Positions 16,757-50,172 of a stretch of DNA of 64,000 nucleotides are shown piece by piece. Position numbers and translations under genes: made by a program. The stretch is from Hirudinaria manillensis. Taxonomy: Eukaryota; Annelida; Clitellata; Hirudinida; Hirudinidae. The stretch is taken from positions 7,814,001-7,878,000 of the forward strand of contig CM067530.1 in NCBI GenBank assembly GCA_034509925.1, written 5' to 3'. The notes under the pieces were generated by a model, which worked only from the letters and a program-made list of their open reading frames with translations, was not told the DNA's origin and searched no databases. Numbering within the stretch: the stretch's first letter is position 1; each line of letters opens with the position of its first letter.

Positions 16757-17291
16757 TTACTGACGGAAAAGTTGCCAGGCCTGTATTTAAAATAAAATTA
16801 ATTATAAAAAGAATGGCACGAGTTGTATTAGTAAAGGAATCATACTCCTTTATCTCCAACAGATTGCTTCTCCTGGAAGGTGGTCTAAAAGTTAAATTTT
16901 AAGATTTTGTATAATTATAAGAAAGATTTAATTCAGATTATTTTTTTATATATCGATTCAATGTGCAGGAATGTTTGTGTTCTTAATTTACCCATCCGCT
17001 CTGACTTGTTCGAGTCTAGAAATCAAAGAAAGTAAAATATTACTAACAAAGAACAAATTTAATAAACTTACAATTAACTTCCTAATATCTCTTAAATTAA
17101 TTTAATTCATTAAATAGTAAATAGTAATTTAAATAGTAAATAAAATTAAATTTATTCATCGCCAGAAAAAGTAGCAGCGGTCACCGTTTAAATATATTCA
17201 AATTTTAAGGATATATTTTTTAAAAAAAGCTGAAAATAAAAATTAAACTTGCCTTAGGAAGCTTTGCATCGCTATCAGAATGTTCCAAATT
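16757..17291 (-). other. Large gene, C-terminal tail exons
   Basis: Four small phase-0 exons: 17253-17291 (NLEHSDSDAKLPK), 16992-17015 (TRTSQSGW), 16846-16884 (TTFQEKQSVGDKG) and 16757-16780 (AWQLFRQ-stop). The donor of the first is GCAAGT, a GC-AG intron. The others are GT-AG. These exons are on the far side of the Gypsy insertion, so they reach the mRNA only if the 5.9-kb intron is spliced. Confidence 0.6.
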
Positions 17292-20200: not shown

Positions 20201-23200
20201 CGATTCTAGGTAAGGGGTAGCTGTCTTTAAGTGTCATTTCGTTCAGCTTTCTATAGTCGACACAAAAACGAAGTGATCCATCTTTCTTTTTAACGAGTAC
20301 CACTGGTGAGCTCCAGGGGCTATTTGACGGTTCAATAACCCCTTGGTCTTGCATTTCTTTTATCATTTCCTTGGCGTTTGCTCTTGTAGCTAACGGAAGT
20401 GGACGGGGGTTTTGTCGAATGGGTTTAGCACCGGCCGTATTTATTTGATGTTGCACGAGGTTAGTCCTACCCAAAGGGCTGTCTTGTTCAGCCATTATAT
20501 CCTGAAATTCGCTAAGCAGCTTTTCCGCTTGTTGATAATCTTCTTTTTGTAGGGTTTTGTTTAAATCTTTCAGGAGATTGTCCACCAATGGTTTAGGCAT
20601 GGCATCCCTTTTTATATGCTTATTTCCACTTCCATCTAATGTTAATATGTGTTCTAGGTTCCTGCAAAGTGCGATAGGTGTTCCTGCTTTGATCTGTTGT
20701 TCCTGGTCAGATAGATTCATTACCCTCAGTGGAACTCTGCCGGTGTTTAGCTTGACTAGTGCTCGTCCTATTAGTAGTCCTTGGCCAATGCCCGATTGAT
20801 CTTCGACTGCTCCTATACCAAATTTTGTGTGGTCGCCCTCTAGCCCGCCCCAAATTAAACTTTCCGACTGTGCTGGGATGGTCTCGTCCTGCAATACTTT
20901 TACAAATGTGTCTTTAATTTCTGTACCTCCGTAATTTAAAGGAATCTCCATCGTTCCTTGTTGAAGGGTACCGCCCTTCATGTCAATGGAAATTCCATAG
21001 CGTCGCATGAAATCCAATCCCAGTATACATTCATCTGTTATATTGGCTATCATAAATTCCTGTTCGAATGACTTGCCTCCTAAATCCACTGTAATAGTTG
21101 TGGTTCCTTGAACTGGCACTAATTCTCCGGTGGCTGTTTTTAGCTTGTAGTTGTTGGTCGTTACTTTACTGTTTCCTGCCAGCTTTGGTTGGACAATAGA
21201 TGTAGATGCCCCTGTGTCTATTACAAGATTATATTCCTTCCCTCCAATTTTTCCTTTAACCTCTAGTGATGATCCTTTTCCCAATGCCGTAACGTGAAAG
21301 ACGAGTGGGGCATTTCGAGTTTGCTGAAACGATCTTTGCCCCTTAAAATCAGAAGCTTCAGGTTTTTCTGATTTATAGGGCTCTCTCCAGTACTGCTGTT
21401 TTTTGGAGAAGGTCGTTCTACATTCTCGGGCTAAATGGCCTGGCTTGTTACACCTGAAGCACCTTGGTCTTCTATCTATTTCCTGGAATCTTAAGTTTCT
21501 TGGGGGCTTGCTGAAGTCATTGATTTGTCGGGCTATTTTTTTAATCATCTCTCTGTCTTTGTCATTATCTTTATCTTTCTCCTTGCCTCTGTTTTCCTGA
21601 GCTTCAATTTTCTTTACATTCAAGCTTTTTTGGATTGCGGCTCTTGCCGCTTCTATGGAGATTGCAAACGCCAATGCTTCATGGCTGGCCTTTATTCCAT
21701 GAATTTTTAGTGCCATTTTGGTTTCCGCATCCCTTATCCCATCAACGAAGGCGTCAGTTACAATGTTTTCAATGAAATCTGTTGACTGTCCTGGATGGGC
21801 TAAGTATGCGAGCCTTCTGACATCAGCCTCTAATTCTTGGAGTGATTCGCCCTGTTTTTGCGTACGATTTTTCAATTCGTTTTTATGTACTTCCAGCATG
21901 TGGCCATTCCCAAATCTTCTTTCCATTGCTTCTGCTATTTACAGTGGAGCATTGTTTGCAAAAGCTCGGCTGCCCTTCCTCGCAGTACCATTATCAGCTC
22001 TGTTGCTTTTTCCTCTTCGGTCCACTTGTTGCGTTCAGCGGCAGTTTCAAACTGATGTCTGAACACTGCCCATGGCCCTTGTCCGTCGAATAATGGTGGT
22101 CTTGTCGTTTTCTCTCTTCCATATGTCTCTGTTTTCGATTCATTGTATTTTTTAAACTTCTCTATTTCCATCCTCTGCTCTTCTTTTAGTGCATCTAATT
22201 CTGCTTTAACCTTTCTCAGGTCGGCCATCTCCTTGGATGATCTGAGGTTGGCTACGTCCGTTTTTACCTCTTCCCGCAGAGCATCCATGGATGTCTGGAA
22301 TTTGGCTGCATCAGTTTTTACCTCTTCCCGCAGAACATCCATGGATGTCTGGAATTTGGCTACGTCTGTTTTTACCTGCTCCTGTAAAACATCCATGGCT
22401 ACCTGGAAGTTGGCTATATCGGATTTCACATCTGACCGCAAAGTATCCATGCCGCAAATCAATTCTGACCGCAAAACATCTATGCCGCAAGTCATATCTG
22501 ACCGTAAAACATTATTGTCTGACCGCAAAGCATCCAGGGCCTTATTGTTGGCTTCTATAGCAGTCTGAAGGGCTTCCCATTGTTTTTCTTTTTGAGCCCC
22601 AAATTCATACTCCGACGGATCGTGATTATTTTCCAAAAGCCATTCCTCGAGCCGTCCTTGTAGTTCGGCTTTTAGGCCAGTTGCATCCAGGCCTCGATTC
22701 CTTAGTTCTCGTCTCAAATCGGGAACGCGCAAATCGTCCAGTATCTTAGGTCCCATTTCTGTCGTTAAAACTCGCTGTTTTACCTCTAGTGAATCGATAT
22801 CCCTTTACGACGTTAAATCCCACTCCTGACACCAATGTTGTAACCCGGGGTCTGATGAATTAATTAACGTAAGGATATCTTTATTGGATTTAACTAATGG
22901 CAAATACGGCTGGACGATTTGGTCGATTGCTTGTCCCGACGGAACTGCCTAATGACCCGAATCGCTAGATACGACTTTGAAATAAAAGATCCTGAATATT
23001 AACTAAACTTAATTAATTAATTATTTAATTAATTAATTAATGTCAGGGATCCAACACTATCATAACATTAATTTAAACGATTAATAACGTTTGTCTTAAA
23101 ATTATGAATTGTTGGATATAATTTGATCAATAAACATCTGAAGGCTGCACTTTGGTTCTTACCAGTGTCTGCCACCCCTGGCCTGAAAAGAATGAGCCAA

Positions 23201-26200
23201 AGTCAAGGCCACTGAGTGACTTGAGGATCGCACTGAGATTCAGTTCAGATACATTTTGAAGGATCACGTAAGAGAAACTTCTCTTGAGCAATTTTTTAAC
23301 TTTCTTAAACTTTCTCTTATACAAAGTCTGCTGCTTTTGAGGGGCATCTGCCGGGACCCTGAATTTTGAAATTTCGTTATGGATTTTAGGCCATAATTGT
23401 TTCAGGATTAAAATATGTAAACAGTTCCAAAATATTTTTCATCATATCATCGTTTCTAACAAACCGAGCTGCAAGGAAATGTGGTATTTGCTAATAAATG
23501 AATGTTTACAAGTCACGCTTACCATACCAAGATAACCAGCTTATTTTTGTCAGAATCGTGATAGAAGGCATATCTTCCTTCTCCAGCTTTCTGGGCTGCC
23601 ACGAGGTCTTTCACCAAGTCATCAAAAGAGGCTCCTTAAAAGTATCGAAAGAAATTTATTGATTAATAGCTAAATAAAAATAAAAACTTTATTTTGTATT
23701 CCTTATCAACCTGCGGCCCCGGATTTATCGACAACGAGAGTGTTTGCTGCTGTCCATTTGGTTGTTATGTATTTTCGTTTCCCTGAATTAACTTCATCGA
23801 TGGCAGTTTCGGTGCTTGGGTCCAAATTAGCCTGGATTAAATTACATATGTTTTGATAAATTTAATTAAATAAATTAAATTTTATTCAATTTTTAATTAA
23901 ATAAAAGTTTAATATTTTGTTGACAAACATTTGGATAAAATTTTGGATGAAGCGGTGAAACCAATTTAAGATGATTTAAAAATTTACTTTCAATCTTGCA
24001 ATTAAAATTTTTATTCAAACCGGCTCGTTATCTTCTGGTCCTTCATCGCTATCTTCACCAAAGACAATCTACATTAAAAATTGTTTAAATAAATTATTAT
24101 TTATTTCTAAACCATCACAGTTTATCCAAAATTGAACAAGTGAAACACCATGATACTGAATTAAAAACTACGAGGAGCGTTTCATAAATGATTGATGAAT
24201 AAACTTACTGGCACTAATGTGATTCATGACATGTTGCAATAAACGTAGTAATTTAAACTAAAATGGAAAATTAAAGTTTAAATTGAAGATCACCTGTTGT
24301 TTCCACTCGAATTTTGAAACCCAGCTGCTGAAGTCGAAGGAACTTGCTGACTTGAACAGCGCATCGAGGTTCAGGTCAGCAACTTTGCTGGTTATGACGT
24401 AGAAGAAACTTTTCTTTAGCAACTTCTTCAGTTTTTTAAGTTTTCGTTTGTACAAAACTTTCTGTGCTTCCGGTACACTGGCTGGTGTCCTAAACAATTT
24501 CAGATTTGCTTTTGAAATGCGCTAAGAAATGCTATCGGACGGGTAATCGTATGTTTAGAGCATATCTAATCATTTTCGGAGCGATAGGTTATCACAACTA
24601 TGGACAAATATGCTTTAGAAATGAATGAAATTATAGGTATAAGCACTATTAAACCGACCATACGACGAGAAGTAATTTTCCTTTGTCGTTGTAAAAAGCA
24701 TATCTGCCTTCACCAGATTTCTCTGCAGCTACTAATTCTTTCACGAGGTCGTCGAATTTGGCATCTTCAATAGAAAAGCATTTGCGTAATTTAAACTGAT
24801 AAACGAAATAGATTTTTTATTAATATTTACCTGGCGCTCCAGTTTTATCAACAACGAGTGTGTTTGCTGGAGTCCACTTAAGAGTCACATATTTTTTCGT
24901 GCCCTTTTTCACGTCTTCCACTACTGAATCAACTTTGACATCAAGCTGAGCCTAAGCCAATATTTAAAGAAATAACAAACAAAAAACATTATCTCTATTC
25001 TCCGCCGATAAAAGATTTTAAAAATATTTAACTTTTCAAATACATTCTGATTCAATATTTTTTTTTATGTAAGTCCTCTTAAGTTTTCTTCTTATGTAAA
25101 GTAAATTCTAATAAAAATATGTGTTAATATTGACAAGCATCTACGAGTGAGCACATCAAACAAATTAATAGAAACTCACGGGTTCATCATCATCGCCTTC
25201 GTCCTCTTCACCCTATAATAACAGTATACGATTAGTTAATATTTGCGACCAAATTCACTTTTCACGGAAATCAATAAATCAGATAAATTTTCATTTCAAA
25301 GATTCACGATGAATGCAAGCATAGTTAAGTACATATCATATAAATATTAGACAAATATACATATAATGTAATATTAATATATAATAAACTCACTCCAAAT
25401 TTCTTGACTTGTTTCAACAACCAGGAAGAAAAATCAAAGCTCTTCGATTTTTTCAAAAGTTTGGTGAGTTCCAATTCAGGAACACTTTCGGCGACAACGT
25501 AAGCGAAGTTCTTCTTCAGCAGCTTCTTTACTTTGACCAATTTCTTTTTGTACAACACTTTTTGTTTATCAGGTAGGGTCGATGGAGCCCTATGCGAAAG
25601 TGAGTGTAGAATATTATGGGTTAACTTTAATTTTATCTTTCGGGCTCAAATGTATCCATAAATAAGACAATCAAGTTACTGCCTTTATGTTTCACTACCT
25701 CTAAACCAGTCCGCACTTGTATAGCGCTTCTCCCCGATGATGCGTGGGGTTTACGACACGACACATTGTGGCGGTCGTCATTACGATGGTATGCAGGAAC
25801 GTCAAGGCCACATTTTTAATTAACATGATCTCACCATACGACGAGAAGCAAATTTCCATTGTCGTTATAGAAAGCATATCTTCCTTCACCAGCCTTTTCT
25901 GCATCAACCAGATCTTTTACCAGATCGTCGAACTTTGCATCTTGAGAAATATTTTCAGTACGAGATTTTGACAGAATTACAATATTAAAATGTTTTATGA
26001 TTATTAATTACTTGGAGCTCCAGTCTTATCGACGACAAGAGTGTTTGTAGGAGTCCATTTTAGAGTCACATATTTCTTTGTTCCTTTTTTCACATCTTCC
26101 ACAACGGGATCTACTTTTGGATCTAGTTCAGCCTTAATAACGCAAAGATCAATTTTAAAAATAATAATGTGTTTAATTGAAATTAAAATAAAACAATAAA

Positions 26201-29200
26201 TAGAGCCATGTTCAAAATGTAATGAGTAAATGATGAAATATTGGGACTGATTAAAAGTGCAATAATATCTCTAAGTATACTTCGACTAATATTAATACTT
26301 CGATTAACATTTAATATTTTTCTTACAGGTTCGTCATCATCTTCATCCTCATCTTCTTCTTCGGGCTTCTAAAATTTAAAGATTATTTGGTTGTTTACAA
26401 CTCAGTCCTAAGCTTTTTTAGAAGATAAAAATATAGAACTATATATTTCTTGTTATACATTAGAATCTATTAACTCTGAAAATAAACGAAATCAACTGAA
26501 ACATGAAAGAAATAGTTCTGAAACACAAACTCACCACTACTTTCTTCACCACTTTCGTAAACCACTTCACGAAGTCCAAAACTTTCACGGTTTTCTGAAG
26601 CTTTGGAAGATCCAAATCTTGGACTGACTGGGGAAACGCGTAAGTAAAGTCCTTTTTCAACAATTTCTTGACTTTAACGAGTTTCTTTTTGTAGAGCACT
26701 TTCTGCTTATCAGGAAGAGTCGATGGCGCCCTTTGTAATAATGAAATATTAAAGTATTATAATAAAAATAAATATTTTCTTGATACTTGTGCCTTTATCT
26801 GCCAATATAGTCTCTGCTAACCAAACGACGAGAAGCAAATTTCCATTGTCGTTGAAGAAGGCATATCTTCCTTCACCAGCCTTTTCTGCATCAACCAGAT
26901 CTTTAACCAGATCGTCGAACTTTGCATCTTGAGAAATATTTTCAATACGAAAATTTTACAGAATTACATTATTAAAATGTTTTATGATTATTAATTACTT
27001 GGAGCTCCAGTCTTATCGACGACAAGAGTGTTTGTAGGAGTCCATTTTAGAGTCACATATTTCTTTGTTCCTTTTTTCACATCTTCCACAACAGGGTCTA
27101 CTTTTGGATCTAGTTCAGCCTTAATAGGGAAAAGATCGTTTTAAAAATAATTATGTCTTTAATTGAATTAAAATAAACAATAAATAGAGCCATGTTCAAA
27201 ATGTAATGAGTAAATGATTAAATATTAAAAGTACAATAATATGTCTAAGTATACTTCGATTAACATTTAATATTTTTCCTTACAGGTTCGTCATCATCTT
27301 CATCCTCATCTTCTTCGGGTTTCTAAAATTTAAAGTTTATTCGGTTGTTTACAACTCAGTCCTAAGCTGTGTTTTTTTTTAGAAAATAAAACCATAGAAC
27401 TATATATTTCTTGTTATACATTAGAATCTATTAACTCTGAAAATAAATGAAATCAACTGAAGCATGAAACAAATAGTTCTGAAACACAAGCTCACCACTA
27501 CTTTCTTCACCACTTTCGTAAACCACTTCACGAAGTCAAAACGTTTCACGGTTTTCTGAAGCTTTGAAAGATCCAAATCTTGGACTGACTGGGGAACCGC
27601 GTAAGAAAAGTCCTTTTTCAACAATTTCTTGACTTTAACGAGTTTCTTTTTGTAAAGTACTTTCTGCTTATCAGGAAGAGTCGATGGCGCCCTATGTAAT
27701 AATGAAATATTAAAGTATAATTATAAATAAAATAAACTTTTATAGTACTTATGCCTTCATTTTAAACTCAAAATCGTGCAATTTTAAGAATTTAATTCCT
27801 GCTAACCAAACGACGAGAAGCAAATTTCCATTGTCGTTGAAGAAGGCATATCTTCCTTCACCAGCCTTTTCTGCATCAACCAGATCTTTCACCAGATCGT
27901 CGAACTTTGCATCTTGAGAAACATTTTCGATATGAGAATTAAGTTAATAAAATGTTTTATGAATAATTACTTGGGGCTCCAGTCTTATCAACAACAAGGG
28001 TATTTGTAGGAGTCCATTTTAGAGTCACATATTTCTTTGATCCTTTTTTCACATCTTCCACAAGGGGATCAACTTTTGGATCTAGTTCGGCCTTAATAAT
28101 GCAATGATCAATTTAAAAATAATAATGATTGAGATAAAATAAAATAAATTTAATGGGGCTATGTTGCAATGATGCAATGAATAAATGTAAATGTAAAGAC
28201 AAATACAGTTACGTCTGGCTACTATGCCACCCTCGCTATTATGCTACTTTTGGTCGGTCCCGACAAAATTCAATACAAAATAAATTTACTATGCCACCCC
28301 CAATCCTCGCTACTAGGCCACCATGGTCCTGACATTGTTTATCTAACCCATGAAGTTAAGGACATATTTCCAGTAGGGGGAAATAATTGAGAGTCATTTC
28401 CTTGTATTTTTAAGATTTTATCAGGTTAATACTTTGCCATGACTTGTTGGTGAGGGATGATTAAGGAAAGTAATGGAAAATTCCTTGGAATTTGATTGGT
28501 CTAATGGGCAAAGTTGCCTGGGAGTGTAAATAGGAATGAAAGTGAATGTTGAGATTTTATGTGAAAATTGCGAGTTGGAGTGAAGATCAGCAAATGTTAT
28601 CTCAGAAACGTAAGCGAACGTTTGGCTAGATAATTTCAAGAAGCGCCAAATCACGTTCAAGGCAGTGCAGGGTGAAGCTGAAGCTTTGGTCGCAAGTCTA
28701 GTGTGATGCAAGCGTGCGATCGACTAGACAACGAGATCCGCCGAAAGGAGATGCGTCAGCCAAAGATTGTGAGAGATGATCTGAGCTGATGGTTAACTTG
28801 AGAAAATAAAGCCGTTTTTATTTGATAAAATAAGGCCATTTTTACAAATCCTCGTTACTCTGCCACTCTCGCTACTATGCCACTTTTGCTCGGTCCCGAC
28901 GTGCGTCATAGCAGCGAGACTTGACTGTATAAATGTAAAATGCAGAGACAAATATCCAGATGAAATATTGGGCCTGGCCAAAAATACAACACGTCAACGA
29001 TTAATAAATATTAATTCAGCTTACAGGTTCGTCATCGTCTTCATCCTCATCCTCATCTGCTTCTTCGGGTTTCTAAAATTTAAAGATTAATAGGTTATTT
29101 ACAACTCAGTTCTAAGCTGTGGATTTTTTTCGAAAATAAAACCAAAGAACTAATTTTTATATATCTCTGTCGTATTTCTTGATTCTTTGTAAATTAAATT

Positions 29201-32200
29201 AACTCAAACAAAAAAATTAACTTAACTGAAACACAAACTCACTCCTGGTTTCTTGAACAGCTTCGAAAACCACTTCACGAAGTCAAAAGCTTTCACGGTT
29301 TTCTGAAGCTTTGGAAGATCCAAATCTTGGACTGACTGTGGAACCACATAAGAAAAGTCCTTTTTCAACAACTTCTTGACTTTAACGAGTTTCTTTTTGT
29401 ACAGCACTTTCTGCTTATCAGGAAGAGTCGATGGCGCCCTTTATAATAATGAAATATTAAAGTATTATAATAAAAATAAATATTTTCTTGATACTTGTGC
29501 CTTTATGTGCCAATCTGGTCGCTGCTAACCAAACGACGAGAAGCAAATTTCCATTGTCGTTGAAGAAGGCATATCTTCCTTCGCCTGCCTTTTCTGCATC
29601 AACCAGATCTTTAACCAGATCGTCGAACTTTGCATCTTGAGAAACATTTTCAATACGAGATTTTGACAGAATTACATTATTAAAATGTTTTATGATTATT
29701 AATTACTTGGAGCTCCAGTCTTATCGACGACAAGAGTGTTTGTAGGAGTCCATTTTAGAGTCACATATTTCTTTGTTCCTTTTTTCACATCTTCCACAAC
29801 AGGGTCTACTTTTGGATCTAGATCAGCCTTAACAACGCAAAGATCAATTTTAAAATAAAAATTCTTAAAATAAAACAAAATAAATGGAACTGCGTTCAAG
29901 ATGCAGTGAGCAATGCAGAGATAAATATCCATGTGAAATATTAGAACTGATAAAAAAAATGCATGCAATTTCTAAGTATACTTGGATTAACTTCTAATAT
30001 TTTTCCTTACAGGTTCGTCATCATCTTCATCCTCATCTTCTTCTTCGGGTTTCTAAAATTTAAGCATTATTCGTTTGTTTACAACTCAGTCTTAAGCTTT
30101 GTTTTTTTAAGAATATAAAACAATAGAAATATATATTTCTTGTTTTTTAGAAAATAAAATCATAGAACTAATTCTTATAGATTTCTTGTTGTAAATTAGA
30201 CTATTAACTCAGAGAATAAATTAAATTAAATGAAGCATGAAACAAATAGTTCTGAAACACAAGCTCACCAATACTTTCTTCACCACTTTCGTAAACCACT
30301 TCACGAAGTCAAAAACTTTCACGGTTTTCTGAAGCTTTGGAAGATCCAAATCTTGGACTGACTGGGGAACCGCGTAAGAAAAGTCCTTTTTCAACAATTT
30401 CTTGACTTTAACGAGTTTCTTTTTGTAAAGTACTTTCTGCTTATCAGGAAGAGTTGATGGGGCCCTATGTAATAATGAAATATTAAAGTATAATGAAAAA
30501 AATAAACGTTTATAGTGGTACTTGTGCCTTCATTTTAAACTCAAAATCGAGCAATTTTGAGAATTTAGTTCATGCTAACCAAACGACGAGAAGCAAATTT
30601 CCATTATCGTTATAGAAAGCATATCTTCCTTCACCAGCCTTTTCTGCATCAACCAGATCTTTCACCAGATCGTCGAACTTTGCATCTTGAGAAACATTTT
30701 CGATATGAGAATTACGTTAATAAAATGTTTTATGATTATTAATTACTTGGAGCTCCAGTCTTATCGACAACAAGGGTATTTGTAGGAGTCCATTTTAGAG
30801 TCACATATTTCTTTGTTCCTTTTTTCACATCTTCCACAAGGGGATCAACTTTTGGATCTAGTTCAGCCTTAATAATATCAATATCAGCCTTAATAATGAT
30901 CAATTTAAAAATAATAATGATTGAGATTATAAAATAAAATTCATGGGGCTATAATGGATATAAAATTTTAGAAATAATAATCGGAGGAGAGAATGTGTGT
31001 AATATATGACGGTAGAGATTATCTAAAAGGTGCATGAGATATTTATTTATGACAAAACTAACGGGTTCATCATCATCTTCATCTTCCTCTTCCTCCTCAG
31101 GTTTCTAAAGATATTAAAAGAAAGGCTTATATATCCATAATAAGTTGTACAACGAAATCAAATAACATATATCCATAATAGTTTAAAACAATTTCATCGA
31201 TGGAATCACTTACTTCTGGTTTCTTTCCTTGTTTCGACAAAAATGTTGAATAGTCAAAGTCCTTCACGGTTTTTAGAAGCTTTGGAAGGTCCAATTCTGG
31301 GACAGATTGTGGGGCAACGTACGAGAAGTTCTTTTTCAGCAATTTCTTTACTTTAACAAGTTTCTTCTTGTACAGAACTTTCTGCTTATCAGGTAGGGTC
31401 AATGGTGCCCTGAATGGCGTTCATATTGCAGTTTCTTAAATATGCTATCGCAGCAAAATAAATCATTTACAATGTCATGGGTACTCACCAAACAACGAGC
31501 AATAGTTTTCCATTATCGTTATAGAAAGCATATCTTCCTTCGCCTGCCTTTTCTGCATCAATCAGATCTTTCACCAGATCATCGAACTTTGCACCTGAGA
31601 AAGCATAACGATACTCAATAATAATATGAGTTATACCTTGAAATGTTTAGCGACCAAAAGTGAAGTGGGGAATGACCATAACTTGAACAAAGTTCAGAGC
31701 GTCTTACCTGGAGCTCCAGTCTTATCAACGACCAGTGTATTGGTTGGGGTCCACTTCAGTGTGACGTACTTTTTAGTTCCCTTTTTCACGTCTTCTACCA
31801 CAGTGTCAACATTTGGTTCCAATTGAGCCTATAAATTTTACATGGATTTAATATGTGTAAACTAATTCTTCATTTTAATGCCAGAATCATTAATATGAGA
31901 ACATCTATTCATTATTTCGGGAACACTTACGGGTTCATCGTCATCAACTTCATCGTCTTCCTCCGTGGGCTTTGGTAATGGCTTTAAAGAAGTAATGAAT
32001 GCAAGTCACAAGATAATTTATTTGGTATGTAAAAAAATTACATTTACGTGTATGGATGATTTAATAGCTTAGACAATACGTCTAATTAGGATTCACGATC
32101 AAAATCACTCACTTCTGGTTTCTTTCCTTGTTTCGACAAAAATGTCGGGTAATCAAAATCCTTGACGGTTTTCAGAAGCTTTGGAAGATCCAATTCTGGT

Positions 32201-35200
32201 ACGGATTGTGGGGCAACGTACGAGAAGTTCTTTTTCAGCAATTTCTTTACTTTAACAAGTTTCTTCTTATACAGAACTTTCTGCTTGTCAGGTAGGGTCA
32301 ATGGTGCCCTGAATGGCGTTCATATTGCAGTTTCTTAAATATGCTTTCGCAGCAAAATAAATTATTTACAATGTCATGGGTACTCACCAAACGACGAGCA
32401 ATAGTTTTCCGTTGTCGTTGTAGAAGGCATATCTTCCTTCGCCTGCCTTTTCTGCATCGACCAGATCTTTGACCAGATCGTCGAACTTTGCAGCTTGAAA
32501 AACATCAATATTATTCATTAAGGATTATGCATGGGGAAATGAAGCTTAGGATCGACTAGTTTGCTTAATTCTACGCTGATCTTTTTGGACTAGAATTGAA
32601 TAAGTTTCGGGAGTTATGGGACCAATAAATGACAGTTACCTTTTTTTTTCTTATGAACAAGATAAGAACTGGCATTTCATAGTCGTAAGGATAAGTTCAA
32701 CGCTACTCACTTGGAGCTCCAGTCTTATCGACGACGAGGGTGTTTGTTGGGGTCCACTTCAGTGTAACATATTTTTTAGTGCCCTTTTTCACGTCTTCGA
32801 CAACAGTGTCGACGTTTGGTTCTAACTGAGCCTATTAGATTTAGACAGGTTTAGTAATTATTTATTTCTTAAATTGGAGGCCAACATCAATAACATATCC
32901 ACTCCTATTTGTTTTAGTCTCACTTACAGGTTCGTCGTCATCAACATCCTCGTCTTCATCCACGGGCTTCTGTAATAAATTTAAATTCAACTAGTGCATA
33001 TCATAAGAGAAACGCAAAATTTCCAGTTATAAAAATGGACGATATTTAGATATATCCAGAATATATTCTATCGCCATCGACAGCATCACTTACTTCTGGT
33101 TTCTTTCCTTGTTTCGACAAAAATGTCGGGTAATCAAATTCCTTGACGGCTTTCAGAAGCTTTGGAAGATCCAATTCTTGGGTCGACTGAGGGAGCACGT
33201 ACGAGAAGTTCTTTTTAAGTAATTTCTTGACTTTAACAAGTTTCTTTTTGTACAGCACTTTCTGCTTGTCAGATAAGGTTGATGGTGCCCTAAATGACGA
33301 TGAGTTTATATTTAATTTATGGAATAGTGGTTTCTTGCAAAGTCATTCATTACTACCAAACAACGAGCAGCAGTTTTCCATTGTCGTTGAAGAAGGCGTA
33401 TCTTCCTTCGCCAGTCTTTTCTGCATCGACCAGATCTTTCACCAGATCATCAAACTTCGCACCTTAGTAAACATCAATATTTTGTCACTATATTCAATAT
33501 GGATTTTACCCGGAGATATGAAAATATCCTTATCATCTAGGATTAGAATTCATGGAACTAGACAGAGTTAAGAGCATAATACTTGCAGGGATAAAGTTGG
33601 GTTTTTTTTCTAAGAAATCTGAATTGGCGTTTCAAATGCACGTGGATAAAATTCAAGCGACATACTTGGAGCTCCAGTCTTGTCGACGACGAGGGTGTTT
33701 GTTGGGGTCCATTTCAGTGTGACATACTTTTTAGTACCCTTTTTGACGTCTTCAACTACGTTGTCGACGCTTGGTTCTAACTGAGCCTATAATTTTTAGA
33801 CAAGTTTAAACTTTATATCTTGTAGAATATTTCTTAATTTATAGGCTACTATTATTAACATCGGCATGCCTATTTTATTTTAGTTAAACTTACAGGTTCG
33901 TCGTCATCAACTTCATCGTCTTCTTCCGCAGGTTTCTGAAATGAATTCAGAGTAAAAAGAATACTGATCATAAAAAATTGTAAATTTTCGAACTTTGATC
34001 CTATGAATCGATATTTCCATCGACAGAATCACTTACTTCTGGTGTCTTTCCTTGTTTCGACAAAAATGTGGGGTAATCAAAATCCTTCGCAGTTTTTTGA
34101 AGTTTTGGAAGATCTAATTCCTGAGCCGAACGAGGAACAACGTACGAGAAGTTCTTTTTGAGAAGTTTCTTGACTTTGACGAGTTTTTTCTTGTACAGCA
34201 CTTTTTGTTTATCAGTTAGGGTTGATGGTGCCCTATATGACGAGGAGTTCATATTGCATTTTATCAATCGTGAGTTCTATCAAATTTATTCATGCGCACA
34301 GCAAAAAGATCGTACCACACGACTAGCAGCAATTTTCCATTGTCGTTGTAGAAGGCATATCTTCCTTCACCAGCCTTTTCTGCATCAACCAGATCTTTCA
34401 CCAGATCATCGAATTTCGCATCTTTGAAAATAAAATTAATATTTCTCGTAATATTAATATTTACTTAGTGGTTGTATCAAGAGATATGAAACGCGGACTG
34501 GGCTAATCTGGGCCTACGAAACTTTGGATGTAGCAGTGTTAGACAAGGATGCGTTGCTAAGTTTGTATTAAGTACCAAAAGTGATTTGGCGATTTATCCT
34601 TACTTGGACAAAGTCATACGTGTCTTACTTGGAGCTCCAGTCTTATCAACAACCAGGGTATTGGTTGGGGTCCACTTGAGTGTGACGTACTTTTTAGTAC
34701 CCTTTTTCACGTCTTCAACAACGGTATCGACGCTTGGCTCCAACTGAGCCTGATTTTAATGAAATGTTTAACTTAAAATTCTTTATTGAATTTAACTTTC
34801 ATTGAATTATGGAGTTTTGCTCGGTAATTATTTCCATTATTTGTTTAACATATACTTTGGTGCATTTGGTTTGTCATATTTTTGGTTATACTTTAAAAGT
34901 AAAACATATTTTCCACGTTTTACGCTTACCGGTTCGTCATCATCTTCGTCGCTCAGCTCTTCGGGTACCTTCATAAATTAGAATTTATGCTTATATTCCT
35001 TTATTTATATTCAAGAGTTATTTTTACTAATTATTCTATGTTCTTAGTTAGTCTGATCTATTCACCTCAACTTTTTCTGGTACTACAGGGGTTTCTTTGA
35101 CAGGCTCCTGGACTTGTCCACTGCCAGCTGGAAGAAGTTTGCTGACACCTTCTGGAGTTACTTCAGTGACGCTTTTTACGGTAACTTCATTCCATGCTGG

Positions 35201-38200
35201 TACTTTCAATGAGGTTTTTAGGCCTTTTAATTTCAATAGGTATTTCGTAACCAATGTTTTGTCGGCTGTGCTGGGGGTCCTATTAAAAACACATTTATTG
35301 ATCAATTATCAGCATAATTATATTAATCAACCTCTAAAAGAATTAACTTACCATAACAGTAAAAGAAGTTTATTTTGGGTTGTGCCATCTTTTAACACTG
35401 GCAGAAAGTAAAAGACTACTCTCAGTTGACCAGAACCTTCAAACTGTTTCAAATACGACGCCAACGAAGCAAAATCGGCACCTGTGGAAGGTAACATCAA
35501 GTTCGGTATTTAAGATTTTCCTGAGTTTTACAATTTTTTCTGTGCTTACTAAATAAGATTTAAATTACACTCCTTGTTTTTTTTAATGTCTTTTAAATAA
35601 TTATATTTTTTTTAAATAATTCCTCAAACTATTAATTTGATGAGGTAATTTTGTGAATGCATAGTTATGGCCTAAAATATATTTAAATGTCAACATTCTT
35701 CGCTATATATAACTAGAAAGAAAGAAAGAAAAATGAAACTTTGATCAACTTACTGAGATCACCCACTTTATCAACCACCACGCTGTTGAAATCGTCAGAA
35801 AATTTCAGGACAACGTATCTTTTCGATCCCTGACTGACTTCATTGACGCTGGTTTGCACACTTGTATCTACTTTCACCACCTTTGATGAAAGTGAAATTT
35901 TATAAAATCACAAGTTATTTGCAGCTAAGATTTACTGCAACATTTGCAGTGCAACCATATTATTTAATTGACTGTATCTAAATAATGGTGCTCCTCGTCG
36001 TGTAATGGTTAAGACACTGCCTCTTAAGATGGCGTCACGGATTGGAACACCATGTTATTGGAGCACCCTCCTATACATTCAGCTATGTAAGTTTATTTTT
36101 TATTATTGGATTTAAATGTTGTACCTCATCTGTGGTTGGTGTTGTTGTCGTCGTCGTCACGAGTTGTCCCGAATTGGCTGGAAGAAGTTTGTTGACACTT
36201 TCGGGGGTTACTTCCGTGACGCTTTTTACCGTAACTTCATTCCATACTGGTACTTTCAATGCGGTTTTTAGGCCTTTTAATTTCAACAAGTATTTCGTAA
36301 CCAACGTTTTGTCGGCTGTGCTGGGGGTCCTATTAGAAACACATGTATTAATCAAATAACAGCGTAGTTATATTAATCAATTCGAAAAGAATTAACTTAC
36401 CATAACAGTAGGAGAAGTTTATTTTGGGTTGCGCCATCTTTTAGCACTGGCACGAAGTAAAAGACTACTCTCAGTTGACCAGAACCTTCATACTGCTTCA
36501 AATATAGTGCCAACGAAGCAAAATCGGCACCTGTGGAAGATAACATCAAGTTCGGTATTTAAGATTTGCCTGAGTTTTACAATTTTTTCTGTGCTTACTA
36601 AATAAGATTGAAATTACACTCCTTGTTGTATTTTTAAACGACTTTTAAATAATTATAATTTTTTTAAATAATTCCTCAAACTATTAATTTGATGAGGTAA
36701 TTTTGTGAATGCATAGTTATGGCCTAAAATATATTTAAATGTCAACATTCTTCGCTATATATAACTAGAAAGAAAGAAAGAAAAATGAAACTTTGATCAA
36801 CTTACTGAGATCACCCACTTTATCAACCACCACGCTGTTGAAATCGTCAGAAAATTTCAGGACAACGTATCTTTTCGATCCCTGACTGACTTCATTGACG
36901 CTGGTTTGCACACTTGTATCTACTTTCACCACCTTTGATGAAAGTGAAATTTTGTCACAAGTTATTTGCAGACAAGCTAAGTTTTACTGCAACATTTGCA
37001 GTGCAACTGTATTATTTAATTGACTGTATCTAAATAATTGTGCTTCCTCGTGTAATGGTTAAGACACTGCCTCTTAAGATGGCGTCATGCATCGGAATAC
37101 CCTGGAGCACCCGCCTGCTCATTCAGATATGTAAAGAATTTTTTTAAATATTGGATTTAAATGTTGTACCTCATCTGTGGTCGTTGTCGTTGTCGTCGTC
37201 GTCACGATTTGTCCTGTATTCGCTGGAAGAAGTTTGTTGATGCCTTCAGGAGTGACTTCGGTTGTGGTTTTGACTGTTACTTCATCCCATATCGGTACAT
37301 TTAAGGAAGTCGTTAGACTCTTTAGTTTCGTCTGATACTTTGATACTAAGGTCTTGTCAGCGGTGCCAGGGGCCCTTTTAAGGACATTTAGAAGGTAGGC
37401 AAGATGGTATCCGCCATTCGACCATAGAGATAAACTTCTTAAATTACTTACCAGAAGATAAGCAGTACTTTGTTTCCTACGACTCCATCTTTAACGACAG
37501 GCACAAAGTAGATGACGATTCTCACTTCACCTGCTGCTTCGTACTTTTTCAGGTCTGCAGCCAGGTCGGCGAAGGTTGCACCTGCAAAATGTTTTATTTT
37601 TATGAGAGCATCAAACTGAATTAATTGTATTTTATATTATATTAATATTTATTATATTATTGAGCATTTGAAATTATTTTTATCCTTATATCTTAACATT
37701 TGCTGAGATCAGCCACTTTATCAATCAACAACGCTAGTGAAAATCATCAGAAAATTTCAGAAAAACGTACCTTATTATTACATTATTAAAGTTAGACAAA
37801 ACATAATCTGCCAACAATAGCCCCGGCCAAATCAGCCGCCATAAAATTATGGTAATTACAAGGTTTACATGGTTTACAAGTTAATTTTGAAGCATTTTAA
37901 ACCCACTGAGATCGCCCACTTTATCGAGGACGATGCTTGAAAAGTCATCGGAAAATTTAAAGATGACGTATCTCTTTGATCCGAGACTGACTTCTTGGAT
38001 GCTTGGCTTCAGTTGTACATTCACCGTTACTACCTTGAAAAATATATTGATTACAGTTGTTAATTACTGTTTTCCTTCCCAGAATTCGGACAAAAAAGAC
38101 TAGAATAATACTTCAGTAGTTTCTGACTCTCCGTACTCCGAGCTTGATATAATCCTATTGTATCCCTCTGCAGCGCTGTTGTGTAAGTACGTAAGATTGA

Positions 38201-39004
38201 AGTCGGATTGCAAATCAGATATCAGAGAAAGTACAATATCCTTGCTAAAAAGTTTTTCCAGTTCATCGACTACGGCCGAATATTTTTGGCCAACTTCTTC
38301 ATTGTTTCCCGTGGCTACCCTGAGGATATAAATATAAATGTAAAAGGATTTGTAACTCTTCAGATGTTACAATAAGAATATCTAAGGTTAAATTACATAT
38401 ACAAGACATCGTTCGTTATCAAAAGATGATTTCCTTAAAGTAGTTTTATTATTTTAACGTTAGAGTGTCCTCACCAAACTAAAACATAAAGTTCCTTTCC
38501 ACTTTTCCCGGCATTGGAATATGCTCCAAGTAAATCTTCTTTTGATGCCAATAAATCGGTTGTCAGACTGTTGAAATCTGTTGCATATGTTTTCTTCGTA
38601 TAATTTATGTTTTTAAACGTATCATAATCATTTAAAAATATTTTTTCTGTTTTTACCTCCAGCAGAAACTTTAACCAAAGAAAATGTGCTAAGGTCCTGA
38701 GATGGCTTGAATACGGCATAACTTTTTGCGCCTTGGGCTACGTCCTGATAAGCTTTCGAGGCATCGGCATTGAATGTTAAGGTCGCACTGGTCTGAATAA
38801 CAAAATGCAGAATTTCAAAAATACTCTAATTTAGATTGTTGATATGTGGCCACTGAAACTCACCAATTTGCAAAATTGGAGGATAAGGAATATTGTTCCC
38901 GACCAGAACGAAAAAGAGGCTGTGTGACCCTAGTTAAATAATGTAATTAATTAAATTTAATCAAAAGTCCTGTAGCCCAACTAGAGTAATAAGTAACTAA
39001 CCAT
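16757..39004 (-). CDS. Giant secreted protein with 15 tandem ADF-H-like modules
   Basis: Sixty-two coding exons join in frame (7,164 nt, about 2,387 residues). Exon 1 (39002-39004) is the ATG only. Exon 2 (38864-38929) encodes the leader MGHTASFSFWSGTIFLILQF, a likely signal peptide. Then come one N-terminal-type module, three STADK-type modules and eleven lysine-rich modules, each of the latter preceded by an acidic linker exon ending in DDDEP or similar. The last four small exons encode a 41-residue polar tail. Each lysine module has a first strand near KKYVTLKWTPTNTLVVDK, then GEGRYAFYNDNGKLLLVVW, then APSTLPDKQKVLYKKK. The order matches cofilin: core strand, RYALYD strand, hydrophobic strand ending FW, APxxAPxKxKMxY helix. 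A family search is needed. Ser/Lys actin-contact positions of cofilin are largely replaced by Lys, and the signal peptide points outside the cell, so an actin role is doubtful. Two mobile elements sit in its introns. Confidence 0.82.
17528..17748 (-). repeat. 3' LTR of the Gypsy element
   Basis: 221 bp, matching the copy at 22836-23056 base for base as read. On the minus strand it carries AATAAA at 17572-17577, a candidate polyadenylation signal. Confidence 0.93.
17749..17761 (-). other. Polypurine tract
   Basis: Minus-strand AAGGAGGGGGCAA abuts the 3' LTR and overlaps the end of the pol stop codon. This is the expected position for plus-strand priming. Confidence 0.8.
17760..21926 (-). CDS. 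pol: Gypsy capsid C-half, nucleocapsid and pol polyprotein
   Basis: 1,388 codons without a stop. Residues 1-100 are the C-terminal half of the capsid. A CCHC zinc knuckle is at 156-169, retropepsin VIDTGAS at 235-241, reverse transcriptase about 500-700 with YLDDIIV at 654-660, and RNase H opening at DTDASNCG (801-808). The integrase has an HHCC zinc finger (about 1037-1077) and catalytic D1106, D1166 and E1202 (LDIAGP, HSDQG, VERFNR). A GPYRI chromodomain-like end motif is near 1341. All key catalytic residues are present. The first ATG lies 12 bp after an in-frame TAA, so translation must depend on the upstream gag frame. Confidence 0.93.
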   Translation of the reverse strand: MERRFGNGHMLEVHKNELKNRTQKQGESLQELEADVRRLAYLAHPGQSTDFIENIVTDAFVDGIRDAETKMALKIHGIKASHEALAFAISIEAARAAIQKSLNVKKIEAQENRGKEKDKDNDKDREMIKKIARQINDFSKPPRNLRFQEIDRRPRCFRCNKPGHLARECRTTFSKKQQYWREPYKSEKPEASDFKGQRSFQQTRNAPLVFHVTALGKGSSLEVKGKIGGKEYNLVIDTGASTSIVQPKLAGNSKVTTNNYKLKTATGELVPVQGTTTITVDLGGKSFEQEFMIANITDECILGLDFMRRYGISIDMKGGTLQQGTMEIPLNYGGTEIKDTFVKVLQDETIPAQSESLIWGGLEGDHTKFGIGAVEDQSGIGQGLLIGRALVKLNTGRVPLRVMNLSDQEQQIKAGTPIALCRNLEHILTLDGSGNKHIKRDAMPKPLVDNLLKDLNKTLQKEDYQQAEKLLSEFQDIMAEQDSPLGRTNLVQHQINTAGAKPIRQNPRPLPLATRANAKEMIKEMQDQGVIEPSNSPWSSPVVLVKKKDGSLRFCVDYRKLNEMTLKDSYPLPRIDDTLDTLSGSKIFSTLDLKSGYWQVELHPDDREKTAFSTGEGLWQFTVMPFGLCNAPATFERLMEHILRGLNWKVCLVYLDDIIVVGKTFGEHLDNLREVFSRIREAGMKLSPKKCSLFKKEVKYLGHIVSSEGVSTDPDKVDVVKNWPVPKNIQELQSFLGLCTYYRRFIANFSNIAKSLHELTVKGKPFIWNGSCEKAFNNLKEAMTTAPILAYPIPGLPFILDTDASNCGIGAVLSQQVENEEKVLAFYSRSLSKAERNYCVTRRELLAAVESMKHFQKYLLGQPFLLRTDHASLRWLLNFKNPEGQMARWIERLQGFQFNIEHRRGQIHNNADTLSRRPCQLNCRHCNNAEKKQETEECRQIRITVPEPWTESGLRDLQLRDEALAPILQWMEAGVKPDWQQIAEHGEVTKSYWAQWDSLRISNGLLHRKWETEDGTDYHLQIVLPRSCVSEVLQEFHNGTSGGHLGVNKTIRKVRERFYWLHYKQDVEEWCRNCNNCATSKGPQKKTKGLMQPYNVGVPFERIALDIAGPFPASKKGNRYILVISDYFTKWTEAFALPNQEAENVADALVNNWISRFGVPLELHSDQGRNFESKIFQELCENLGIHKTRTTALHPQSDGMVERFNRTMEQYLSKMVSEQQDDWDRYLPLFLMAYRTAVHKTTGISPSKMTFGREIRLPADMMFGRAEEPKSACDYVSSLRNTLADTHQVARKNISVNSDQAKARYDRQANDISFKENELVWLYNPQRKKGKSPKLQKDWEGPYRIIKKINDVVYRIQKSARTRMKVVHSNRLAKYHGETEQPVRDEQI
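21935..22756 (-). CDS. gag: Gypsy gag, N-terminal part (SAP domain, coiled coil, start of capsid)
   Basis: 273 codons. Residues 1-42 are an SAP-type DNA-binding motif (LRVPDLRRELRNRGLDATG). Residues about 60-200 are a heptad-like coiled coil with repeated units (VLREEVKTDxAKFQTSMD). Residues from about 219 open the retrotransposon capsid (PPLFDGQGPWAVFRHQFETA). The frame then ends abruptly after LLQT, within the capsid. The remaining capsid half lies in the pol frame. The break probably inactivates this copy's own particle assembly. Confidence 0.85.
   Translation of the reverse strand: MGPKILDDLRVPDLRRELRNRGLDATGLKAELQGRLEEWLLENNHDPSEYEFGAQKEKQWEALQTAIEANNKALDALRSDNNVLRSDMTCGIDVLRSELICGMDTLRSDVKSDIANFQVAMDVLQEQVKTDVAKFQTSMDVLREEVKTDAAKFQTSMDALREEVKTDVANLRSSKEMADLRKVKAELDALKEEQRMEIEKFKKYNESKTETYGREKTTRPPLFDGQGPWAVFRHQFETAAERNKWTEEEKATELIMVLRGRAAELLQTMLHCK
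22817..22834 (-). other. Primer-binding site, tRNA-Leu type
   Basis: Minus-strand TGGTGTCAGGAGTGGGAT begins two bases inside the 5' LTR. It is complementary to the 3' end expected of an animal tRNA-Leu acceptor and T-arm plus CCA. The tRNA identity is from recognition, not alignment. Confidence 0.75.
22836..23056 (-). repeat. 5' LTR of the Gypsy element
   Basis: 221 bp, same sequence as the 3' LTR; directly followed on the minus strand by a tRNA primer-binding site. Confidence 0.93.
23163..24068 (-). other. Large gene, acidic linker and lysine-type module 15
   Basis: Linker 24021-24068 (IVFGEDSDEGPEDNEP); module exons 23711-23831, 23523-23634 (112 bp, two codons longer than in modules 5-14) and 23163-23358. 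Most divergent of the lysine modules; it resembles module 3 of the middle gene. The Gypsy element begins about 100 bp beyond its last exon. Confidence 0.68.
24294..25212 (-). other. Large gene, acidic linker and lysine-type module 14
   Basis: Linker 25180-25212 (GEEDEGDDDEP, the shortest); module exons 24831-24951, 24659-24764 and 24294-24489. The basic helix reads YKRKLKKLKKLLKKSFFYV. Confidence 0.7.
25394..26368 (-). other. Large gene, acidic linker and lysine-type module 13
   Basis: Linker 26327-26368; module exons 26012-26132, 25835-25940 and 25394-25589. The third exon is divergent from module 12: FAYVVAESVPELELTKLL, ending VKKFG. Confidence 0.7.
26535..27322 (-). other. Large gene, acidic linker and lysine-type module 12
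   Basis: Linker 27284-27322 (13 residues); module exons 26999-27119, 26822-26927 and 26535-26730. Introns are nearly the same sequence as those of modules 11 and 13. Confidence 0.7.
27496..29072 (-). other. Large gene, acidic linker and lysine-type module 11 (intron carries a DNA transposon)
   Basis: Linker 29025-29072 (16 residues); module exons 27971-28091, 27807-27912 and 27496-27691. The intron between linker and module is enlarged by the inverted-repeat element at 28206-28927; without it the unit would have the usual size of about 1 kb. Confidence 0.7.
28206..28927. mobile_element. Non-autonomous DNA transposon, pogo/Tc1-mariner-like
   Basis: 722 bp bounded by CAGT...ACTG and a TA duplication on each side (28204-28205, 28928-28929). 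Terminal inverted repeats of about 23 bp are imperfect (CAGTTACGTCTGGCTACTATG against CAGTCAAGTCTCGCTGCTATG). Subterminal direct repeats share CTCGCTAxTATGCxACTTTT followed by xGTCGGTCCCGAC or a close variant. No transposase ORF is evident. It sits in the intron of lysine-module 11. The start and TA duplication resemble pogo/Tigger elements; the superfamily is inferred. Confidence 0.75.
29243..30052 (-). other. Large gene, acidic linker and lysine-type module 10
   Basis: Linker 30011-30052 (KPEEEDEDEDDDEP); module exons 29707-29827, 29530-29635 and 29243-29438. The third exon ends FKKPG. Confidence 0.7.
30269..31104 (-). other. Large gene, acidic linker and lysine-type module 9
   Basis: Linker 31063-31104 (KPEEEEEDEDDDEP); module exons 30747-30867, 30580-30685 and 30269-30464. 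From here to module 13 the third exon carries variants of DFSYAVPQSVQDLDLPKL. It ends KKVL where modules 5-8 end PE. Confidence 0.7.
31214..31981 (-). other. Large gene, acidic linker and lysine-type module 8
   Basis: Linker 31931-31981 (17 residues, PLPKPTEEDDEVDDDEP, the longest of the set); module exons 31708-31828, 31489-31594 and 31214-31409. Confidence 0.7.
32113..32969 (-). other. Large gene, acidic linker and lysine-type module 7
   Basis: Linker 32928-32969 (KPVDEDEDVDDDEP); module exons 32711-32831, 32388-32493 and 32113-32308. The third exon differs from that of module 8 by about one residue (YPTF against YSTF). Confidence 0.7.
33094..33935 (-). other. Large gene, acidic linker and lysine-type module 6
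   Basis: Linker 33894-33935 (KPAEEDDEVDDDEP); module exons 33666-33786, 33357-33462 and 33094-33289. The central exon has FFNDNG in place of FYNDNG. Confidence 0.7.
34037..34968 (-). other. Large gene, acidic linker and lysine-type module 5
   Basis: Linker exon 34930-34968 (VPEELSDEDDDEP); module exons 34629-34749, 34316-34421 and 34037-34232. First of ten modules with the fixed 121+106+196 bp exon set. The helix reads TDKQKVLYKKKLVKVKKLL. Confidence 0.7.
35066..35880 (-). other. Large gene, ADF-H-like module 4 (STADK type)
   Basis: Exons 35754-35880, 35352-35481 and 35066-35279. The last exon carries a Val/Pro/Glu linker (EPVKETPVVPEKVE) where modules 2 and 3 have Thr runs. Confidence 0.7.
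35989..36067 (+). pseudogene. tRNA-like relic or SINE head, copy 1
   Basis: GGTGCTCC and GGAGCACC form an 8-bp terminal stem. Between them GTGTAATGGTTAAGACA resembles a tRNA A-box (as in tRNA-Gln/Glu), and CTTAAGA looks like an anticodon loop reading TAA. The T-arm/B-box is degenerate, so this is not called as a working tRNA. Confidence 0.45.
36125..36932 (-). other. Large gene, ADF-H-like module 3 (STADK type)
   Basis: Exons 36806-36932, 36401-36530 and 36125-36329. Its first exon encodes the same peptide as that of module 4, and the second differs by a few residues. The surrounding introns are also nearly the same, so modules 3 and 4 are a recent tandem copy. Confidence 0.7.
37042..37113 (+). 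pseudogene. tRNA-like relic or SINE head, copy 2
   Basis: Same GTGTAATGGTTAAGACA and CTTAAGA core as the copy near 36,000, about 1,046 bp away. It shares that copy's tandem duplication. The terminal stem is weaker. Confidence 0.45.
37170..38033 (-). other. Large gene, ADF-H-like module 2 (STADK type)
   Basis: Exons 37907-38033, 37452-37581 and 37170-37374. Contains KRYVIFKFSDDFSSIVLDK, VRIVIYFVPVV and APGTADKTLVSKYQTKLK, ending in a nine-Thr run that forms a flexible linker. Confidence 0.68.
38112..38929 (-). other. Large gene: signal peptide and ADF-H-like module 1
   Basis: Leader exon 38864-38929; module exons 38657-38792, 38475-38577 and 38112-38319. Motifs are KSYAVFKPSQDLSTFSL, ELYVLVW and SDLQSDFNL, followed by AAEGYNRIISS. 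The last exon (208 bp) is 3 bp shorter than in the two neighbouring genes. Confidence 0.68.
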
Positions 39005-39045: not shown

Positions 39046-39054
39046 CTTTATATA
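39046..39054 (-). promoter_or_regulatory. TATA box of the large cluster gene
   Basis: Minus-strand TATATAAAG, 42 bp upstream of the ATG at 39004. The layout (TATA, very short leader, ATG, intron) matches the other two cluster genes. Confidence 0.65.
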
Positions 39055-48958: not shown

Positions 48959-49209
48959 TATATAATATAATATAATATAATATAATATAATATAATATAA
49001 TATAATATAATATAATATAATATAATATAATATAATATAATATAATATAATATAATATAATATAATATAATATAATATAATATAATATAATATAATATAA
49101 TATAATATAATATAATATAATATAATATAATATAATATAATATAATATAATATAATATAATATAATATAATATAATATAATATAATATAATATAATATAA
49201 TATAATATA
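48959..49209 (+). repeat. (TATAA)n microsatellite, about 50 perfect units
   Basis: Uninterrupted period-5 array over 250 bp. The open frames through it are artefacts of the repeat. Confidence 0.95.
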
Positions 49210-50130: not shown

Positions 50131-50172
50131 ATGTAATAATAAACTATTACATCACATACCTAACATAATAAC

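Follow-up and report, generated by a model that had tools for sequence, protein, structure and literature searches.

A gene for a predicted secreted protein of fifteen ADF-H modules, one of at least four related genes

Proteins with the ADF-H domain are described in a review as actin regulators of one or two domains acting inside the cell, twinfilin having two (PMC5297645). The locus studied here raises the question whether this domain may also be exported in many tandem copies, and what such a protein would do outside the cell. A sequence-only reading had stated that ADF-H domains occur once or twice in cytosolic actin regulators; the review agrees with this, but the statement omits gelsolin. 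The window, by which we mean the whole stretch of 64,000 nucleotides analysed, is C5:7814001-7878000 of a genome of 148.4 Mb.

The gene model and its ADF-H modules

Gene 1 was reconstructed from splice signals, with an ATG at 39004, a TAA ending at 16757 and a coding length of 7,164 nt including the stop. Sixty of its 61 introns are GT-AG and the remaining one is GC-AG, and no in-frame stop occurs in the 62 exons of this splice-signal model. The limits are identical to those of the sequence-only reading, in which 62 exons had been joined in frame over 16757..39004. An ATG-only exon is followed by a signal-peptide exon, the 15 modules and a short tail, as listed here:

16757..39004 (-), gene 1: 62 exons, 2,387 aa, signal peptide plus 15 ADF-H modules plus short tail
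39046..39054 (-), TATA-like box TATATAAAG, about 42 nt 5′ of the gene 1 ATG, recognised from sequence only
39002..39004 (-), exon 1, whose coding part is the ATG alone; identical plan in genes 2-4
38864..38929 (-), signal-peptide exon GHTASFSFWSGTIFLILQFCKL, phase 0-0, with likely cleavage after TSA in the following exon
38112..38792 (-), module 1: A1 38792-38657, B1 38577-38475, C1 38319-38112; placed via gene 2 module 1
37170..38033 (-), module 2 (A, B, C), PF00241 E 9.4e-12
36125..36932 (-), module 3, PF00241 E 2.7e-9
34930..35880 (-), module 4 and the first acidic linker exon (D), PF00241 E 3.6e-9
33894..34749 (-), module 5 (A-B-C-D), PF00241 E 9.8e-11
32928..33786 (-), module 6 (A-B-C-D), PF00241 E 2.8e-10
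31931..32831 (-), module 7 (A-B-C-D), PF00241 E 4.1e-10
31063..31828 (-), module 8 (A-B-C-D), PF00241 E 1.5e-10
30011..30867 (-), module 9 (A-B-C-D), PF00241 E 4.9e-10
29025..29827 (-), module 10 (A-B-C-D), PF00241 E 1.2e-9
27284..28091 (-), module 11 (A-B-C-D), PF00241 E 1.1e-9
26327..27119 (-), module 12 (A-B-C-D), PF00241 E 1.3e-9
25180..26132 (-), module 13 (A-B-C-D), PF00241 E 7.1e-11
24021..24951 (-), module 14 (A-B-C-D), PF00241 E 2.8e-12
23163..23831 (-), module 15 (A-B-C), PF00241 E 1.9e-14
16757..17291 (-), tail: four small exons ending in TAA, placed by splice signals and phase only

Each module consists of exons A, B and C, and modules 4-14 carry an extra small acidic exon, D. The phases are uniform throughout, 0 to 1 for A, 1 to 2 for B and 2 to 0 for C (15/15 each), and 0 to 0 for D (11/11). 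Profiles of the A, B and C exons gave 20, 18 and 18 matches at E<1e-3 across every gene in the window, and none for any of the three in all five dinucleotide-shuffled versions of it, which rules out a chance array as the origin of the modules. As these profiles were derived from gene 1's own exons, Pfam provides the independent test. The Cofilin_ADF family (PF00241) matched the gene 1 protein with 450.5 bits (E 3.3e-137) in 14 separate stretches at E<=1. A profile search of the modules for ADF-H had been proposed with the sequence-only reading, and when they were scanned singly 14 of the 15 exceeded the curated PF00241 cutoff. Module 1 alone had no Pfam match; it was assigned to ADF-H because its paralogue, gene 2 module 1, with which it groups at 100%, matches PF00241 (E 2e-9).

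Modules 5-13 are under purifying selection: variable columns number 35, 25 and 103 at the three codon positions, and dN/dS is below 1 in all 36 pairs (range 0.03-0.41). This bears on the possibility that gene 1 is an artefact in which the exons of several distinct genes, or of an array in decay, were strung together by eye. The introns between modules are somewhat longer than those inside them (median 186, n=14, against 113, n=41), and a retrotransposon precedes the last exons, both of which would fit such a view. Yet the model has a single start and signal unit, zero stops and uniform phases through all 62 exons, its dN/dS values are far below 1 and three further genes are built alike, so that we hold an artefact to be very improbable.

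The retrotransposon, an LTR element at 17528-23056 (-), occupies the final large intron of gene 1 and might shorten the transcript. By eye its long open frames, one at 22804-21935 and the other at 21938-17760, resemble gag and pol of the Ty3/gypsy type. Over the 220 bases compared its two LTRs do not differ, and on the assumption that they terminate in CA the element has ATAG at either end, marking the insertion as recent. Elsewhere in the window, an open frame at 50172-51110 (+) resembles by eye the reverse transcriptase of a non-LTR retrotransposon, and 48960-49209 is a perfect 250-bp array of the 5-base unit ATATA. Rfam, at gathering scores, gave no match in the window.

Sister genes and the signal exon

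Searches of the genome with five modules, in which only the best candidates were followed so that gene and locus counts are lower bounds, returned gene 1, three other places on C5 and a faint match to a cytosolic ADF on C7. The family thus comprises at least four genes with 26 modules, 15 in gene 1, three in gene 2, four in gene 3 and four in gene 4. Genes 2 and 3 adjoin gene 1, and gene 4 (locus L063) lies 1.7 Mb away on C5. The parts that fall in the window are:

4072..13962 (-), gene 2: three ADF-H modules (13465-10872), ATG exon 13962-13960, signal exon 13680-13615
11826-11764 (-), Asp-rich linker of gene 2
1..1331 (-), 5′ portion of gene 3: modules 1 and 2, ATG exon 1331-1329, signal exon 1257-1207

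The final exon of gene 3 module 2 crosses the window edge, and the gene extends for about 4.6 kb below the window (locus L061). Scanned singly, all 11 modules of genes 2-4 passed the PF00241 cutoff (3/3, 4/4 and 4/4), making 25 of 26 for the family, as did all four whole proteins. The exon phases of gene 1 recur in the same 11 modules, gene 4 being without one C-D intron. Between genes 3 and 4, dN was 0.14-0.30 and dS 1.4-2.1 in three of the four module pairs, the fourth being saturated.

Genes 2 and 3 end in Gly-rich tails. In our model of gene 2, for which the donor of exon C1 was chosen among several and one exon-like stretch of the tail (about 7406-7377) was excluded, 21 tiny exons encode a Gly/His-rich tail of 204 aa (44% Gly, 15% Lys, 10% His, pI 10) that ends in GHGGHRH before the stop; an SDSDDEG motif and a run of ten Asp also occur in the protein. 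The excluded stretch, 7377-7406 (-), reads GSDSDDKGRK, has TTAAGT in place of a GT donor and is probably a decayed exon. Gene 3 totals four modules, and its tail of 130 aa is rich in Gly and Leu (31% Gly, 21% Leu), with GGFLFG as the C-terminal end. The four modules of gene 4 are followed by a Gly-rich tail recognised by eye only: tiny Gly-rich exons like those of gene 3 appear to continue over about 3615-1902 (-) of L063, ending by eye in GFRFG and a stop. Just downstream of gene 3, at about 4375-3800 (-) of L061, an ATG-only exon is followed by an exon for a short signal-bearing peptide, MAFSFPLLAIVFMVSQTIAIS through to RIWG and a stop (by eye). A short interstitial telomere-like repeat of the TTAGGG type lies upstream of gene 2 (window about 15121-15140, (-)), and a similar short stretch is found in an intron of gene 3.

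All four genes share the same opening: exon 1 is the ATG alone, and exon 2, of 51-66 nt and phase 0-0, encodes a hydrophobic core. The signal sequences, including the ATG, are MGHTASFSFWSGTIFLILQFCKL (gene 1), MGPTTSVGLKLSWLLLLLQIFKL (gene 2), MGLLTGLSIGILLVCFNV (gene 3) and MGKVINLRSAIAIFLLCTNL (gene 4), and acceptable -3/-1 sites follow the signal exon by eye in each (TSA, GSS, VSS and CSA). Among 95 exon-like stretches of the same region, a control set that includes the true signal exons, 14.7, 9.5, 3.2 and 8.4% were as hydrophobic by chance as the exons of genes 1-4, respectively; the naive product of these gives a joint chance of 3.7e-5. The region is AT-rich, so a lone hydrophobic exon would be unremarkable, and the evidence lies in the recurrence of such an exon in the same slot of four out of four genes. 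Taken alone, the gene 1 signal exon is weak, a domain strand elsewhere in the protein being more hydrophobic over 11 residues (2.36 against 1.85), and in gene 2 a domain strand (2.24) about equals the signal. Outside the signal, none of the four proteins (gene 4 taken minus its tail) has a 19-residue window of mean hydropathy >=1.6, which rules out a membrane protein on this measure. By hydropathy, then, with the tail of gene 4 left aside, all four products combine a signal peptide with the lack of a membrane anchor, and their predicted secretion is well supported. The signal peptide read earlier in gene 1 is hence one instance of a plan found in four genes, and the idea that the fold was moved outside the cell and multiplied fits both the signal exons and the module data. 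Two other fates of the chain were considered and dropped: N-myristoylation of an MG start, a pattern not kept across the four genes (by eye), and a furin-type polyprotein, the R-x-K/R-R site being absent from all four proteins.

The products could instead be cytosolic cross-linkers of actin with many ADF-H domains, the signal exon being misread or alternative. The description of the ADF-H family, in the review, as intracellular actin regulators (PMC5297645) and the weakness of the gene 1 signal exon when taken alone speak for this. It is nonetheless quite unlikely, given the plan of ATG exon and signal exon in all four genes, the Gly/His tails, and the absence of both Cys and Met from the mature chains of genes 1-3. 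The cytosolic, signal-free state that marks the ADF/cofilin class is likewise contradicted by the signal exon of all four genes, as judged from the DNA alone.

Ancestry of the modules

Three single-domain cytosolic ADF genes of the same genome (L064, L065 and L066) were read for comparison. In L065 and L066 a phase-1 intron marks the A/B boundary and a phase-2 intron, within the Trp codon, the B/C boundary, at alignment columns that coincide with those of the module introns; L064 shares only the intron at the B/C position. The agreement of two introns in both position and phase argues that the modules descend from an ADF/cofilin gene. In pairwise BLASTP with L065, gene 1 module 3 is 28% identical over 136 columns (E 3e-15) and gene 3 module 3 is 32% identical over 120 columns (E 8e-20). 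Profile A2 matched 33 distinct PDB sequences, 28 of them named actophorin, cofilin, destrin or ADF and four with uninformative names, and included one weak twinfilin-1 match (E 0.0011); of the 25 matched by profile A1, 23 bore the same group of names and two were uninformative. These module profiles align with the solved ADF/cofilin sequences over most of the domain. An ancestry from ADF/cofilin therefore appears well supported, and the proposal of 15 ADF-H modules in gene 1 now has behind it Pfam, the PDB-sequence profiles and the introns held in common with cytosolic ADF genes.

A tree of 29 sequences (WAG+G4, 142 columns), with the three ADFs as its only outgroup, joined gene 1 module 1 to gene 2 module 1, modules 2-4 to gene 2 module 2 and modules 5-15 to gene 2 module 3, each at 100%. 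This pairing suggests that gene 1 grew from an ancestor with three modules. The modules of genes 3 and 4 pair in order (97-100%), and the deep nodes among the module classes are weak (35-48%).

The exon structure suggests a possible route. The ancestral ADF/cofilin gene would have had an ATG-only exon followed by A, B and C, with introns in phases 0, 1 and 2. L065 and L066 both lack an in-frame ATG in their first domain exon, which means that an upstream start exon is needed; from the MASG start of ADFs we infer that it codes for the ATG alone, and an ATG-only exon was looked for in these two genes and not found. A phase 0-0 signal-peptide exon inserted behind the ATG exon would have directed the product into the secretory pathway. 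As the A-B-C set starts and ends in phase 0, tandem duplication could proceed without a frameshift, and phase 0-0 exons of low complexity, the acidic linkers and Gly-rich tails, may have been added likewise. In gene 1 the ancestral module 2 would have given rise to three copies and the ancestral module 3 to eleven.

The family thus shares with ADF/cofilin proteins (actophorin, cofilin, destrin) the domain family, the intron positions and phases and the Trp-x12-Tyr spacing (24/26 modules). It differs from them in that ADF/cofilin proteins are cytosolic, have a single domain and start with MASG/Ser3, whereas the present genes have a signal exon, between 3 and 15 domains, acidic linkers and Gly-rich tails. 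Twinfilin likewise has more than one ADF-H domain per chain, but it is cytosolic, without a signal peptide, and has exactly two domains and a C-terminal tail, while the chains described here have 15, 3, 4 and 4 modules and so fall outside its definition. Plasma gelsolin also combines secretion through a signal peptide with domains that belong to the wider ADF/gelsolin fold class and have been multiplied. Gelsolin domains are of another family, however; the protein has six of them and severs actin under calcium control. Gelsolin repeats (PF00626) were ruled out as the identity of the modules, being absent from the Pfam matches, at E 1 for gene 1 and at E 0.1 for genes 2-4.

Relatives outside the genome were few. 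The first 1,118 aa of gene 1 were compared with a protein database in which animal proteins seem scarce; of the 8,000 candidates sharing most with the query, taken from proteins of 0.55-1.75 times its length, not one reached E<=10. Profile A1 picked up a single fragment, P0001, readable as exon C of a module together with flanking sequence, and this is the sole homologue of the family found outside its own genome; P0001 itself had no match in a collection of prokaryote genome contigs. Profile A2 matched four proteins resembling ADF, of which two are plain, the other two carry inserted stretches and none is multi-domain. Among the open-licence PMC papers listed, none described, by its title or the beginning of its abstract, a secreted ADF-H protein or one with more than two ADF-H domains. 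The domain is known; its architecture and location here are new to us.

Possible role outside the cell

The composition of the chains is unusual. No Cys or Met occurs in the 3,777 aa of the mature products of genes 1-3 (cleavage sites assumed), nor in the 1,919 aa of 13 representative modules of these genes; the 604 aa of gene 4, minus its tail, include 3 Cys and 11 Met, and Cys plus Met make up 5.2% of the three cytosolic ADFs. Without Cys, the products of genes 1-3 can form no disulphides, unlike many matrix proteins, and losing sulphur residues would be apt for a material that has to last under oxidising conditions. In gene 1, modules 5-15 are strongly basic from the Trp onward (pI 10.0-10.2), and the D linkers, judged from their sequence, are acidic. 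Few N-glycosylation motifs occur (7, 0, 1 and 1 in genes 1-4).

We consider it likely that gene 1 encodes a secreted, very long extracellular structural or matrix protein of 15 ADF-H domains, within a family of at least four genes. The product would be a string of compact domains with lysine-rich helices and acidic linkers, alternating in charge, and may combine with the Gly-rich products of the sister genes to form a material outside the cell; the structural role, the assembly and the cell type making the family are all inferred. The Gly-rich tails of genes 2 and 3 and the 3,777 residues free of Cys and Met speak for a structural role. Against it stand the near lack of such a tail in gene 1 itself, the low counts of N-glycosylation motifs and the lysine pairs of modules 5-13. 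The structural polymer of the sequence-only reading has accordingly gained the Gly/His- and Gly/Leu-rich sister tails and the sequence free of Cys and Met, but polymerisation itself remains conjectural. Silk-like proteins, resilin and shell proteins likewise have Gly-rich repetitive tails, and resilin lacks Cys and Met; here, however, the tail comes after ADF-H domains, and gene 1 has almost none.

The lysine pair, the Met and the Tyr of the long helix were taken as the residues of the G-actin site. The pair is kept in nine of the 26 modules, namely modules 5-13 of gene 1, and is missing from the other 17, so that the G-actin-binding lysines typical of the ADF/cofilin class characterise only a minority of the family. 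The Met that follows the pair is replaced in all 26, and the Tyr, in its Trp-x12-Tyr spacing, is kept in 24. In modules 5-13 the pair could mean that actin binding survives.

Plasma gelsolin is a secreted binder of extracellular actin, and the family might similarly be an exported scavenger of actin, whether released by dying cells or of the kind reported in the filaments of sponge spicules. Modules 5-13 of gene 1 retain the Lys-x-Lys...Tyr of the ADF G-actin helix, as do L064-L066, and F-actin has been reported inside sponge spicules (PMC11274843). This role is nevertheless unlikely: the lysine pair is limited to 9 of 26 modules, the following Met is replaced in every one, and neither the Gly-rich tails nor the sequence without Cys and Met would fit it. 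In addition, another group never saw actin-compatible bands in its gels for hexactinellid spicule silica, without calling this conclusive (PMC10772126).

A mineral-organising matrix protein would be a special case of the structural reading, in which the acidic linkers, Ser-Asp motifs, Asp tract and Lys/His-rich parts steer the deposition of silica or carbonate. We see this as possible, though on balance doubtful. In its favour are the Asp-rich linkers of genes 1 and 2 and, in gene 2, the SDSDDEG motif with the ten-Asp tract and the His-rich tail. Glassin, the calcarins and other sponge skeletal proteins are likewise secreted repeat proteins, and glassin of glass sponges is described as His-rich (PMC10282587). 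Neither the HX-type repeats of glassin nor the di-cysteines of calcarins could be seen by eye, however, and no Ser-type silicatein was seen in the genome. A silicatein fragment gave 29 matches there, at no more than 59% identity, and the active sites seen in four cathepsin-like loci read Cys; a pattern for the Ser active site gave four matches, all reading Cys, against one in the control. A word search of the main texts on Aphrocallistes, on hexaxilin/perisilin, on Sycon calcarin and on Vaceletia gave no occurrence of cofilin.

The genome has six loci with fibrillar-collagen COLFI domains, which identify it as that of an animal. Exon-wise matches to Peptidase_C1 number 160 genome-wide, many of them clustered on C8, C9, C12 and C13. 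At C11:2940129-2942860 two cathepsin-L-like genes lie side by side (L072 and L073), each a single open frame of 360 aa, and their active-site and C-terminal stretches read identically; in a cathepsin-like cluster at C12:3679758-3690327 the active site reads CGSCYAF at four places, Tyr replacing the usual Trp.

Returning to the structural reading, a wider form of it seems to us somewhat better than an even prospect. The family would represent a new class of extracellular structural proteins, in which an actin regulator was exported by means of one signal exon, expanded to as many as 15 domains by phase-0 exon triplets and freed of Cys and Met in three of the four genes, and which may form skeletal or adhesive material together with Gly/His- and Gly/Leu-rich sisters. 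In its boldest form, the modules would have kept their ability to bind actin after export and would organise it extracellularly, which would touch on the dispute over actin filaments in sponge spicules. If the family is real, a core cytoskeletal domain has been recruited to the matrix, and the exons would preserve a record of the route, from a signal exon placed behind an ATG-only exon to in-phase duplication. Its members would be candidates for the matrix or skeletal proteome, and their 26 modules, the lysine pair of the actin contact being absent from 17, may serve as a natural library of ADF-H variants.
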